Positions 54,285 to 59,482 of a DNA stretch of 64,000 nt are shown here, in pieces. Both the position numbers and the translations under genes were made by a program. The stretch lies in the NCBI GenBank assembly GCA_947066955.1, contig CAMTAF010000001.1, positions 55,575 through 119,574 on the forward strand. Direction: 5' to 3'. The notes beneath the pieces were generated by a model that had not been told where the DNA came from, ran no database searches, and saw only the letters and a list, made by a program, of their open reading frames with translations. How positions within the stretch are numbered: position 1 is the first letter of the stretch; the number at the start of each line of letters is the position of its first letter. The stretch is from an uncultured Hungatella sp. GTDB lineage: Bacteria; Bacillota; Clostridia; Lachnospirales; Lachnospiraceae.

Positions 54285-55457
54285 CTACCGGTTCCGGTAC
54301 TTGTCCAGCAGCCGGTTGATCCTCCCGGCCGGGTTCAGCAGTTCGCTCAAGGAGGCGTCATGGTTTAAGTTGTCGATGATCAGGGCAATGTATTTGCTCA
54401 TGTCCACGCTTCCGTAGTAAGGCCTGGAGAGAAGCTCCGGGCTCTGATACACCAGGTTGGTAGTGAGGATCCTGTCGATTATACCGTCTTCATAGAATTT
54501 GTCAAACTTGTCAAGGCCGTTGGTAAACAGGCCGAAGGTTGAGAAGATGAACACCTTTCTTGCCTTCCGCCGCTTAAGCTCCGAAGCCACATCCATCATG
54601 CTCTCGCCGGAGGAGATCATGTCGTCCACGATGATCACGTCCTTGCCCTCCACGCTGCTCCCCAGGAATTCGTGGGCCACAATGGGATTCCGCCCGTCCA
54701 CGATGCGGGTGTAGTCCCGGCGCTTGTAGAACATGCCCATGTCCAGCCCCAGCACATTGGCGTAGTACACGGCCCGGCTCATGCCGCCCTCGTCAGGGCT
54801 GATGACCATCATGTGGTCGCTGTCGATCTGAAGGTCTGTCTCCACTTTCAGCAGATGCTTGATAAACTGGTATGTGGGCTGTACGGTCTCGAAGCCTTTC
54901 TCCGGGATGGCGTTCTGAACCCTGGGGTCGTGGGCATCAAAGGTGATGATATTCTCCACCCCCATGTTGGTCAGCTCCTGGAGAGCCAGAGCGCAGTCCA
55001 GGGATTCCCTGCTGGAACGCCTGTGCTGCCTTCCCTCATAGAGGAAGGGCATGATCACATTGATCCTGCGGGCCTTTCCCGCCGCTGCCGCGATGATCCT
55101 CTTTAAATCCTGGAAATGGTCGTCCGGCGACATGTGGTTGGTCATACCGCATAGGGAGTAGGTGAGGCTGTAGTTGCACACGTCCACCATGATATACAGA
55201 TCATCGCCACGGACAGATTCCTCCAGAGTGCCCTTGGCCTCCCCCGAGCCGAACCGCGGGGTCTTGGCGCCGATGATATAAGAATCTCGCTGATATCCGG
55301 CAAACGCGATAGTAGATTTATGTTCGCTTTCTCGTTCTCGTCTCCAGTTTACAAGATAATCATTTACTTTGCTTCCCAACTCCGTGCAGCTTTTGAGGGG
55401 TACAAGCCCAAGGGGCCCAACTGGAATCGTTTCAATGGTCTTCTCTTCGTATATCAT
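54285..55457 (-). CDS. prs: Ribose-phosphate pyrophosphokinase
   Basis: A 390-residue PRPP synthetase, longer than the usual 315 residues and of a divergent type common in Lachnospiraceae. Markers are INVIMPFLYEGRQHRRSSRE for ATP binding, ITFDAHDPRVQN, and the PRPP loop VIIVDDMISSGESMMD. It makes PRPP from ribose 5-phosphate and ATP for nucleotide, His and Trp synthesis. It lies downstream of dnaD and the dnaC-like gene in the same direction. Confidence 0.92.
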   Translation of the reverse strand: MIYEEKTIETIPVGPLGLVPLKSCTELGSKVNDYLVNWRRERESEHKSTIAFAGYQRDSYIIGAKTPRFGSGEAKGTLEESVRGDDLYIMVDVCNYSLTYSLCGMTNHMSPDDHFQDLKRIIAAAAGKARRINVIMPFLYEGRQHRRSSRESLDCALALQELTNMGVENIITFDAHDPRVQNAIPEKGFETVQPTYQFIKHLLKVETDLQIDSDHMMVISPDEGGMSRAVYYANVLGLDMGMFYKRRDYTRIVDGRNPIVAHEFLGSSVEGKDVIIVDDMISSGESMMDVASELKRRKARKVFIFSTFGLFTNGLDKFDKFYEDGIIDRILTTNLVYQSPELLSRPYYGSVDMSKYIALIIDNLNHDASLSELLNPAGRINRLLDKYRNR

Positions 55458-55529: not shown

Positions 55530-56510
55530 TCAGCGTTTTTTTGTTCTGATGTCCCCTCCGTACAGAGGGATAATAGAATACTGGCTGATGATCCTGGACG
55601 AGATTCGGTCCGAGTAAGTGTCCCGGAGCATGTCCATGGACAGGTTGGTGGAGATGATGGTACTCTTCTTCCGGATCAGTCTCTCGTTGATGCAGTAAAA
55701 AAGCTGAGAAGAGACAAAGGTGTTGTTCAGCTCTGTCCCCAGATCGTCAATGATCAGCAGATCGCAGTCCAGGATATGCTGATACATGTCCTGCATGTCC
55801 TCCTCCGTGTCATAGTGGAATTTGTTTTTGGAGAAAATATCAAACAGGTCATTGGACGATAAATAGATCACCGAGTGGTACCGGTCAATCAGCTCCTTGG
55901 CAATGCAGTTGGTGAGAAAGGTCTTTCCCACCCCGGTGCTCCCTGTAAAGATCAGGTTGCCGCCTTTTTCCTTAAAACCCTCCACATACTCTTTGCACCA
56001 GCCGTAGACCTGCTTCATATAGTCCGCCACAGTCATCCCGATCTGGGAGATCACCTCCCGGTTGTCATAGTAGGCAAAGGTAAAGGTGGAAAAATTCTCT
56101 CTCTTCAGCACCTCCTTAATGTTGGACTGAGCGTAGAGAAGGCTGATCTCTTCTTTCTTAAAACAGCGGCATTTTTTTCCGTTCACATACCCTGTATCCT
56201 GACAGTCCGGGCAGTGGTAGCGCATCTCCATGTAGTCGGCGCTGTAACCGCAGGCCTCCAGGAGCACTGCCTTCTGCTCTCTCAAATCCTCAAGATGCCG
56301 CTTAAGCACTTCCATGGCCCTGTCGTCCCCCTCCAGGAGGCGCTTTCCGCAGGCCACCGCCTGGGTGCTGATGGTGTCATCAATCTGCCGGATCTGGGGA
56401 ATTCGGCTGTAAACCTCCTTCACACGCTTGTCCTGCTCATATTTGTTCTGAAACTGACGCTGATTGTAGATCCGCATAATCGCGTCATACTGGGAATTGC
56501 TCAGTGCCAT
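55530..56510 (-). CDS. DnaC/DnaI-like helicase loader ATPase
   Basis: A 326-residue AAA+ protein. The N-terminal part has a small cysteine cluster (YHCPDCQDTGYVNGKKCRCF). The ATPase has Walker A (FTGSTGVGKTFLTNC), Walker B (LLIIDDLGTEL) and sensor residues in TIISTNLS. It should load the replicative helicase together with the DnaD-like protein encoded ten bases upstream. The names DnaC and DnaI are both used for such proteins. Confidence 0.9.
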   Translation of the reverse strand: MALSNSQYDAIMRIYNQRQFQNKYEQDKRVKEVYSRIPQIRQIDDTISTQAVACGKRLLEGDDRAMEVLKRHLEDLREQKAVLLEACGYSADYMEMRYHCPDCQDTGYVNGKKCRCFKKEEISLLYAQSNIKEVLKRENFSTFTFAYYDNREVISQIGMTVADYMKQVYGWCKEYVEGFKEKGGNLIFTGSTGVGKTFLTNCIAKELIDRYHSVIYLSSNDLFDIFSKNKFHYDTEEDMQDMYQHILDCDLLIIDDLGTELNNTFVSSQLFYCINERLIRKKSTIISTNLSMDMLRDTYSDRISSRIISQYSIIPLYGGDIRTKKR

Positions 56511-56520
56511 ATCTCCCTCC

Positions 56521-57831
56521 TCACTTTTTGTCCTCCAGCCTCTCCTTCAGGCGCTCCAGCACCATGGCGTCATAGTTGGTGCTGCGCTGTTCAAAATTGT
56601 GGAACTGGTTTTTGGATGGCTTCACCGCGCCTGTGCTCCTGTCATTTTTCCTGTTCTCCCTCTTCTCATCCAGCTTTGCCACATCAGCCAGAACCCTGAC
56701 CCCGCCCTTTTTCCAGTCTGACAGGATCTTGTCCGCGTAGGAAAAACTGGGCTTGTGGATCGCCTTCAAGGTCCTGTCGCAGGCCTCCAGGACGATGTCC
56801 CTGGTAAATCCATACTCCCGGAACCATTTGCGGATCATGGTCTGCTCCGAGTCTCCCGGCCTTCTGTCGCTGATTCCGAAGGCTTTCATCACCGCAAAGC
56901 CTTCTTTGGAAAAGGTTGCCGTGTACTCCTTAGCCATGTCCACGGTGCGAATCCCCTTCTCATGCCAGTTGAGCGCCACAGACTCCAGATACCGGATGCT
57001 GGTGTGCCCTCCCTGGACGCAGTACTCTACCAGATATTCCAAAAGCTCCGCCGACATGCCCAGACCGTCGTAGAGATAGGCGAAGACCTCGCACTCCCTG
57101 GGGGTGAAGACCTTGTTCATATATTTCTGGGAGATGTACAGAAGCTGGGTGAAATCCTCCTGGTCCGCCAGACGGCTCACCTGCTCCGGGGTGTACAGCT
57201 TCCGCCTCCCCCCGGTCATCTCCCCGGCCGCCGTCTCCGCCGCGCCTTTTCCAAGTCCCGGCACCTCTGCTGCCCCGGCGCTGTTTCCGGTTCCCGGCAA
57301 TCCTGCTGCCCCGATGCTGCTTTTGGTCCCAGGCGCGCCCACGGCTCCGATCCCGGCGCTGCCTCCGGATCCCGGCAATCCCGTTTCTCCGGCTCCGGCG
57401 GCGCCCCCGGAACCCATCCATATCCCGGATCCCGGGAGCTTTCCCTGCAATGGCATGCCGCCTGCCGCCGCGCCGTACCGGTCTTTTGCCTCAAACACGA
57501 TTCCCGGGCCGCTCCCGCTGCCAGAGGTTTTTCCGGCCTCCGGGCCTGGGGACGCTCCGGCCCCGCTTCCCGCTCCCGGCCCCGCTGCCGCCTGGTTCCC
57601 GGCCTCCGCCAGCACGCCCTGCCGCACCCAGTACCCAAGAGCCCTCTTCACATCCGACTCCGTGTGGTTCAAGGCGTCGGCGATCATCCCAATATCCCAA
57701 TCCTCTCCCTGGTGCCTCAAAAGATACAGATAGACCTTCACATATTCCCCGTTGGCCGAGGCCATGTGCCTGTCTATAAACTCGTTGGCAACCAGGGTGG
57801 CATTTATCTCCAGACAGTTTTTCATTTCCAC
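56521..57831 (-). CDS. dnaD: DnaD-domain replication initiation protein
   Basis: A 436-residue protein. Residues about 10-80 form the DnaD N-terminal winged helix (NEFIDRHMASANGEYVKVYL, LNHTESDVKRALGYWVRQGV). A low-complexity Gly/Ala/Pro-rich insert (about 85-205) follows, then DnaD C-terminal domains (FTPRECEVFAYLYDGLGMSA, EKGIRTVDMAKEY). It acts with DnaA and the helicase loader at initiation. A cluster of DnaA boxes lies directly upstream. Confidence 0.9.
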   Translation of the reverse strand: MEMKNCLEINATLVANEFIDRHMASANGEYVKVYLYLLRHQGEDWDIGMIADALNHTESDVKRALGYWVRQGVLAEAGNQAAAGPGAGSGAGASPGPEAGKTSGSGSGPGIVFEAKDRYGAAAGGMPLQGKLPGSGIWMGSGGAAGAGETGLPGSGGSAGIGAVGAPGTKSSIGAAGLPGTGNSAGAAEVPGLGKGAAETAAGEMTGGRRKLYTPEQVSRLADQEDFTQLLYISQKYMNKVFTPRECEVFAYLYDGLGMSAELLEYLVEYCVQGGHTSIRYLESVALNWHEKGIRTVDMAKEYTATFSKEGFAVMKAFGISDRRPGDSEQTMIRKWFREYGFTRDIVLEACDRTLKAIHKPSFSYADKILSDWKKGGVRVLADVAKLDEKRENRKNDRSTGAVKPSKNQFHNFEQRSTNYDAMVLERLKERLEDKK

Positions 57832-57851: not shown

Positions 57852-58095
57852 TTATCCCCATCATACCACATGTGGATTCAAAAGAAAATAGGCGGGATTT
57901 ATCCACCATGGGATTGTGGATAATGTGGATAATGTGGACAGCAAGTCTACATAATCAGGCGAAATCTGTCGTATTTTGTAAAATCCCCTGTAAATCAAGG
58001 CTTTCAAAATTCACAGACGATTTATTATGTAAATCAAGAAATCCACAGAGGTTTTCCCCGAAAAATGTTGAAAACTCTGTGGATAATGTGGATAA
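57852..58095. promoter_or_regulatory. DnaA-box cluster between murC and dnaD
   Basis: Perfect TTATCCACA boxes (minus strand) lie at 57915-57923, 57924-57932, 58078-58086 and 58087-58095, arranged as two head-to-tail pairs with a 9-base period. Near matches are at 57852, 57871, 57899, 57933 and 58039. The gap 57832-58096 contains no gene. Confidence 0.85.
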
Positions 58096-58096
58096 C

Positions 58097-59482
58097 TCAC
58101 CCTCCAAGGAGATTTTCCCCCACTTTTACAATGTCTCCAGCCCCCATAGTTATCAACAGATCACCGTGAACACAATTTTCTAAAATAAATTTTTCTATCT
58201 CGTCAAATGTGGAAAAGTAGTGGGCCTGTGTGCCCTTTTGCCGGATCCTCTCTGCGATGTCTAAGGAGCTGATCCCCAGATCATCTGTCTCCCTGGCCGC
58301 GTAGATGTCCGCCAGGATCACCTCGTCGGCTGCCGACAGGCTCTCCGCGAACTGATCCAGGAAGGCTTTTGTCCTGGTGTAGGTGTGGGGCTGGAACACG
58401 CACCACAGCTTTCTGTGGGGATAATTTTTCGCCGTGGCCAGGGTGGCCGCGATCTCCCTGGGGTGATGGGCATAGTCGTCGATAATGGTGACGCCGCCGA
58501 TCTCCCCTTTCTTCTCAAACCTCCGGTTGGTCCCTATAAAATGCTCCAGGCCTTCCTTGATATCTTTCATGTCCACCCCAAGCTCCCGGCACAGGGCGAT
58601 AGCGGCCAGGGCGTTGTACACATTGTGCTCCCCCGGAACTCCCAGGGTGATAACCTCCGCCTTCTCCCCGCGGATCATCAGGTCAAAGGTATCTCTGGCG
58701 TATTCGTCATACACAATATGCCCGGCGCTGTAATCACTCCCGGCACTTTTCCCCACAGTCACCACCCGGCACTCAAGGCCGTCCGTGATCTCCTCATAGT
58801 TTTCAATGTCGCTGTTGATCACCAGCACCCCGTCTTTTGGAAGGAGTTTGGCGAAACGATGGAAGGAGCGGCGGATATCGTCAATATCCTTAAAGAAATC
58901 CAGATGATCCTCCTCAATGTTTAAGATCACCTCCATGTTTGGGCAGAAGGACAAAAAGCTGTTGGTGTACTCGCAGGCCTCTGTCACAAACAGCTCAGAC
59001 CCGCCCACCCGGATATTGCCGCCAATGGAATTCAGGATCCCGCCTACGGATATGGTAGGATCCCTGTGGGCAGTTAAAAGGATCTCCGTGACCATGGAAG
59101 TGGTGGTGGTTTTCCCGTGGGTGCCGGCGATCCCTGCGGCGTATTTGTAATTCTTCATCATCTGGCCCAGAAGCTGTGCCCGGCTCAGCATAGGGAGGCC
59201 TTTCGATGCCGCCCTGGCATACTCCGGGTTATCCGGGTGCACGGCCGCCGTATATACCGCCACGTCCATATTGTCCGTAATATTGTCCGCCCTCTGGCTG
59301 TAAAAGATCCGGGCGCCCTTTGCCTCCAGATGGTCGGTGAGCCCTGACCTCTGGGAATCAGAGCCTGATACCTGAAAGCCCTCTTCCATGAGGATCTCCG
59401 CCAGTCCGCTCATGCTGATCCCGCCGATTCCGATAAAATGCACATGGCATGGTTTATGAAAGTCTATCTGATACATACTCAT
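58097..59482 (-). CDS. murC: UDP-N-acetylmuramate--L-alanine ligase
   Basis: A 461-residue Mur ligase. The N-terminal domain binds UDP-MurNAc (VHFIGIGGISMSGLAEIL), the central ATPase has GTHGKTTTTSMV and the Mg-binding region around NIEEDHLDFF, and the C-terminal domain has DDYAHHPREIAATLA. It adds L-Ala to UDP-MurNAc in peptidoglycan synthesis. Length is typical for MurC. It heads the minus-strand group murC, dnaD, dnaC-like, prs. Confidence 0.96.
   Translation of the reverse strand: MSMYQIDFHKPCHVHFIGIGGISMSGLAEILMEEGFQVSGSDSQRSGLTDHLEAKGARIFYSQRADNITDNMDVAVYTAAVHPDNPEYARAASKGLPMLSRAQLLGQMMKNYKYAAGIAGTHGKTTTTSMVTEILLTAHRDPTISVGGILNSIGGNIRVGGSELFVTEACEYTNSFLSFCPNMEVILNIEEDHLDFFKDIDDIRRSFHRFAKLLPKDGVLVINSDIENYEEITDGLECRVVTVGKSAGSDYSAGHIVYDEYARDTFDLMIRGEKAEVITLGVPGEHNVYNALAAIALCRELGVDMKDIKEGLEHFIGTNRRFEKKGEIGGVTIIDDYAHHPREIAATLATAKNYPHRKLWCVFQPHTYTRTKAFLDQFAESLSAADEVILADIYAARETDDLGISSLDIAERIRQKGTQAHYFSTFDEIEKFILENCVHGDLLITMGAGDIVKVGENLLGG

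Follow-up and report, generated by a model that had tools for sequence, protein, structure and literature searches.

The murC–dnaD junction and its DnaA boxes

The window analyzed here is a 64,000-nucleotide (64-kb) stretch of DNA from an uncultured Hungatella sp. On its minus strand, murC (58097..59482; TIGR01082) is followed by dnaD, which encodes a DnaD/DnaB_2 domain protein (56521..57831; PF07261, TIGR01446), by the gene for a replicative helicase loader of the AAA+, DnaC/DnaI-like type (55530..56510; NF005304, E 7e-115) and, next in a conserved gene order, by a prs-like gene for PRPP synthetase (54285..55457; NF005299). A long low-complexity region rich in Gly, Ala and Pro forms the middle of the DnaD protein (window positions 57216-57640); matches in relatives frequently leave it out, and open-frame lengths vary widely.

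The gap between murC and dnaD contains four exact copies of the DnaA box TTATCCACA, at 57915-57923, 57924-57932, 58078-58086 and 58087-58095. Each of them is on the minus strand and oriented from murC toward dnaD. They form two tandem pairs, each an identical minus-strand 18-mer, TTATCCACATTATCCACA, at 57915-57932 and 58078-58095. Array 1 (58078..58095, minus strand) consists of two abutting exact boxes and lies one base past the murC stop codon. Array 2 (57915..57941, minus strand) adds to its two exact abutting boxes a third 9-mer with two mismatches (CTGTCCACA) directly upstream. An earlier note on this DNA had reported four perfect boxes as two tandem pairs in the gap, with genes for DnaD and a helicase loader next in line; the positions are confirmed, with the boxes on the minus strand, and the domain matches agree with both gene assignments. 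The two-mismatch third box, the hairpin described below and the family-wide conservation are additions to that note.

Exact boxes are expected by chance about 0.7 times in the whole window and 0.003 times in the 265-bp murC–dnaD gap. No other tandem pair with a 9-bp period is present in the window, even with one mismatch allowed per box. Boxes with at most one mismatch number 26 in the window, as compared with 14.5 in shuffled sequences (sd 3.7, max 23), and the 4.22-Mb genome contains 82 exact boxes versus 18 for the backward control. The 9-mer of the gap is the same as the box found at dnaA in this genome as well as in relatives. With one A/T permitted per box, the 18-mer has four sites genome-wide, two of them in the murC–dnaD gap, one near hpf and secA (contig C15) and one in a pseudouridine synthase gene (contig C44).

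The last two sites have features of their own. The cluster by hpf and secA (L034:7638-7745 in this genome) is a second conserved tandem cluster in Lachnospiraceae, seen at ten further loci, and often has a Spo0A-like box (TTCGACA/TGTCGAA) within ~150 bp. On C44, a tandem pair and three exact boxes lie inside the pseudouridine synthase gene (L035:7326-7636). A third tandem site is found by a gene for an SH3-like NlpC/P60 hydrolase at five loci from several genera, with a mecA-like gene or truA opposite in some.

Conservation and layout in the Lachnospiraceae

We compared the dnaD region of 21 genomes of the same genus and 59 others, 80 Lachnospiraceae genomes in total. The order murC–dnaD–loader–prs is kept in 80 of 80 Lachnospiraceae loci, as far as each sequence stretch extends. 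The junctions contain 231 exact boxes in 25.7 kb and the flanks 19 in 542 kb, a density difference of about 250-fold. Of the 81 junctions, 78 have one or more exact boxes and 69 an abutting tandem pair. As the loci are related by descent, these counts do not represent independent events. Among the best 80 loci from GTDB representative genomes, a set that partly overlaps with the first, 76 of 78 complete murC–dnaD junctions have at least one box and 69 have a tandem pair; Hungatella hathewayi, [Clostridium] symbiosum, Lacrimispora and Mediterraneibacter are among those with boxes. Conservation in relatives had been named in the earlier note as a test that could refute its reading, and the result is strongly positive. 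The four boxes are neither a chance occurrence nor a feature of a single genome.

Orientation is also strongly biased, with 341 boxes in the junctions pointing toward dnaD and 38 away from it. The module is dispensable in some lineages, as three genomes (G053, G088 and G017) have zero exact boxes at the junction, and in about 15 genera the gap is short and holds array 1 alone. Outside the family, dnaD in 40 genomes from other Clostridia families and orders (two from the same order) has neither a murC neighbor nor tandem boxes upstream; one such locus has a single exact box ~100 bp upstream of dnaD on the opposite strand. No boxes were found downstream of murC in 26 genomes of other Clostridia families. 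These dnaD and murC loci rule out an ancestral Clostridia feature. Since both the boxes and the murC–dnaD linkage are missing in other Clostridia, the module and the linkage are features of the Lachnospiraceae, and the two may have originated at the same time.

The geometry of the arrays is well preserved. Array 1 starts 0–1 bp past the murC stop codon in 58 of the 81 loci, and array 2 follows array 1 at a spacing that is mostly 153–157 or 163–167 bp, a difference due in part to one extra box unit. Five loci have 26–203 bp between murC and array 1, yet their array spacing is 153–174 bp; three of the five have another strong terminator for murC, so that termination of murC is not the whole reason why the module is retained. 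The last box of array 2 ends 83–92 bp before dnaD in most of the genus and the nearest genera and 71–374 bp elsewhere. Outside the nearest genera the array–dnaD distance is thus more variable than the inter-array distance, and the position of the module is therefore not fixed relative to the promoter.

A second conserved element lies between the arrays. The motif TTTACATAA (58025..58033, minus strand) occurs 45 times in 22.2 kb of junctions versus 8 times in 538 kb of flanks, which are 24 times longer. It follows array 1 at 61–63 bp (32 loci), 72–74 bp (nine loci) or 52 bp (one locus), and at no other distance. These values differ by about one helical turn (10–11-bp steps), as expected if two proteins share one face of the helix. 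The motif is largely missing from oriC and from the hpf/secA cluster; of 12 loci downstream of dnaA, two have it. Some few copies have the sequence TTGACA, and a role as promoter -35 element was considered and rejected, as by eye no matching -10 is present downstream. The alignment also revealed TTATGTAGA (57946..57954, minus strand), a partial inverse of TTTACATAA that lies upstream of array 2 and is conserved in the genus.

Some junctions have, in addition, candidate sites for Spo0A, whose box consensus TGTCGAA is the complement of TTCGACA (PMC5295017). TTCGACA occurs 24 times in 22.2 kb of junctions versus 32 times in 538 kb of flanks, with a strand bias of 24:2. It is present in 22 of 80 junctions, between the arrays and often at +113 and/or +123 from the murC stop codon. 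The window itself has a degenerate version with one mismatch, TACGACA (57967..57973, minus strand), where relatives have TTCGACA. Spo0A is present in 25 of 26 genus members and 50 of 60 family members. We considered whether arrays are lost along with Spo0A and set the idea aside as weak: tandem pairs are missing in 4 of 10 Spo0A-negative versus 6 of 50 Spo0A-positive genomes (hypergeometric p ~0.05, ignoring descent).

DnaA sink, terminator and origin as rival explanations

The fixed spacing of the two arrays and the phased partner site resemble an assembled complex, and could belong to a pure DnaA sink or timing site near the origin that holds DnaA or, as datA does, promotes its inactivation, the adjacency of dnaD being incidental. 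We see this as a possible explanation, though clearly a less probable one than control of dnaD. Genome position agrees with it: where dnaA and the junction share a contig (eight genomes), they are 3–22% of the genome apart, and <14% in seven of the eight. The existence of a second conserved cluster at hpf/secA also speaks for a sink, as does one locus in which a gene for a 516-aa membrane-transporter-like protein has been inserted between murC and dnaD; there array 1 remained by murC despite the insertion and no array is near dnaD. Among known systems, joint removal of the six extra-oriC clusters of B. subtilis leads to early initiation (PMC5295017), and E. coli datA likewise lies behind an operon terminator, where DnaA and the terminator limit read-through (PMC10950094). 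However, a free sink needs neither a single gene junction nor a tie to a gene linkage found only in Lachnospiraceae, and the distance from array 2 to dnaD is largely constant within the genus.

The position of array 1 raises the question of how far termination of murC accounts for the boxes. A hairpin with a T-tract, similar to an intrinsic terminator, occupies 58041..58084 on the minus strand, and its basal stem, ATCCACA/TGTGGAT, pairs box 2 of array 1 with a degenerate box in inverted orientation. The layout is ATCCACA, a variable stem, a loop, the other side of the variable stem, TGTGGAT and the T-tract. In many genera the loop holds a weak third box (TTWTCAACA or similar) at +21. The window hairpin has a predicted RNA fold of -21.9 kcal/mol (z -4.2), and a hairpin followed by a T-tract is found in 72 of 81 loci, some of these being unrelated weak hairpins of short-gap genera. 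Of 39 genus-level loci, 38, 36 and 34 can form the first, second and third inner pair, respectively, with many pair types, versus shuffled means of 22, 18 and 17, a somewhat optimistic count as the choice of pairs favored long stems. A stable hairpin, a T-tract and structural conservation, the features that define an intrinsic terminator, are all found here. With box 2 of array 1 as the hairpin base and a covarying inner stem, the boxes might be mainly a by-product of the murC terminator, its stem containing the 9-mer by chance, but we regard this as very unlikely. Box 1 of array 1 and the whole of array 2 lie outside the stem and are still conserved, covariation of the inner pairs means that the stem is free to vary while the box part stays unchanged, and short-gap genera keep the pair without a clear terminator hairpin. 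The conserved boxes outside the stem, together with retention of the module at loci with another strong terminator, rule out the terminator as the sole explanation.

A second or auxiliary replication origin in the gap, which the tandem boxes, the AT-rich spacer and the adjacent helicase-loader genes might suggest, is scarcely credible and can be dismissed, since dnaA is found on a different contig (C171), where it has boxes of its own, the DnaA-trio element is missing from the window junction and no GC-skew switch occurs within the window, the skew being negative on both sides of the site. A trio-like motif is present in 1 of 81 junctions, and the sequence downstream of dnaA in the majority of 12 relatives has a box, CCCC and DnaA-trio-like repeats (CCCCTACTACNAATAC...). 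By the same evidence, the option raised in the earlier note that the site is part of an origin is not supported.

Proposed control of dnaD and relation to known systems

By its sequence, the murC–dnaD gap is best read as a conserved extra-oriC DnaA control region for dnaD and the loader gene, with some titration, a reading that we favor with moderate confidence. A putative dnaD promoter, consisting of a conserved CTATTTTCTTTT block and an extended -10 element TGGTATGAT, was located by alignment at 57860..57891 on the minus strand; a simple sigma-70 scan makes no call for it. TGCTATAAT occurs in 22 of 62 genus-level junctions. If transcription starts near 57853, as predicted, array 2 would cover roughly -61 to -87. 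Sequence, conservation, hairpin covariation, spacing and the limits of the lineage are observed directly; binding by DnaA, the promoter, regulation of either sign and sequestration at the junction are inferred.

In the mechanism that we propose, DnaA would bind the two head-to-tail arrays around the terminator hairpin, the TTTACATAA partner site and, in some species, Spo0A-like boxes. Both arrays and the partner site could then join in a single nucleoprotein complex that adjusts how strongly dnaD and the helicase-loader gene are transcribed, according to the level of free or active DnaA. Protein bound at array 2, just upstream of the putative promoter, could activate it, or could repress it by looping with array 1, while array 1 within the terminator may act as a DnaA roadblock that blocks or tunes read-through from murC. 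As such a complex would hold several DnaA molecules near the origin, some titration is expected. DnaA-dependent control of dnaD and the loader remains the favored reading over pure titration or inactivation, which is possible at best. A DnaA-regulated promoter and a titration or timing locus are mutually compatible. Two observations count against a role as promoter element alone, namely the array that remained by murC at the locus with the inserted gene and the variable array–dnaD distance outside the nearest genera. Boxes placed before dnaD and the loader gene probably let DnaA control those genes and/or soak up DnaA away from the origin. More speculatively, and with doubt outweighing belief, the junction could be a Lachnospiraceae-specific checkpoint at which DnaA arrays, a box-built terminator, a phased putative DNA-binding protein and, in sporulators, Spo0A jointly gate helicase-loader synthesis. 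If so, DnaA level and sporulation state would set the capacity for starting replication at one non-origin site.

The best-studied extra-oriC clusters are those of E. coli and B. subtilis, which lie at unrelated genes, and our search of the open-access literature (subscription papers being outside its scope) found no description of a murC–dnaD module. The presence of such a cluster at the helicase-loader operon in most members of a major gut family would couple the initiator directly to synthesis of the loading machinery. The junction also provides a well-defined site for experiments in organisms in which the control of replication has hardly been studied.

Several consensus DnaA boxes lie close together outside oriC and above chance expectation, which is the sequence feature expected of an extra-oriC cluster. 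The murC–dnaD module is therefore a DnaA-box cluster by sequence, and by analogy it may work like a B. subtilis-type cluster or datA; it represents a known kind of module in a new place and with a new architecture. Six such clusters are described for B. subtilis (Okumura et al. 2012, as relayed in PMC5295017 and PMC13220808), the strongest regions being ywcI/vpr, gcp/ydiF, ywlC, sda, yydA and trmE (PMC4447404). Like them, the Lachnospiraceae junction has exact, intergenic boxes outside oriC, and in most genomes checked it is also origin-proximal. Unlike them, it is located at the helicase-loader operon and has two arrays of abutting head-to-tail boxes together with a phased partner motif and a terminator that contains a box. 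In E. coli datA, DnaA box 2 and the upstream terminator reportedly hold down read-through and a DnaA roadblock is documented (PMC10950094); the two sites share DnaA boxes behind an operon terminator, but they are unrelated by descent. The DnaA-controlled sda promoter of B. subtilis similarly has boxes upstream of a cell-cycle gene, whereas the putative targets at murC–dnaD are the helicase-loading genes themselves. Finally, B. subtilis oriC has overlapping DnaA and Spo0A boxes (PMC5295017), and DnaA boxes and Spo0A-like boxes likewise occur in one region at the junction, which in contrast is not an origin and has its Spo0A-like boxes between the arrays, in some species only.
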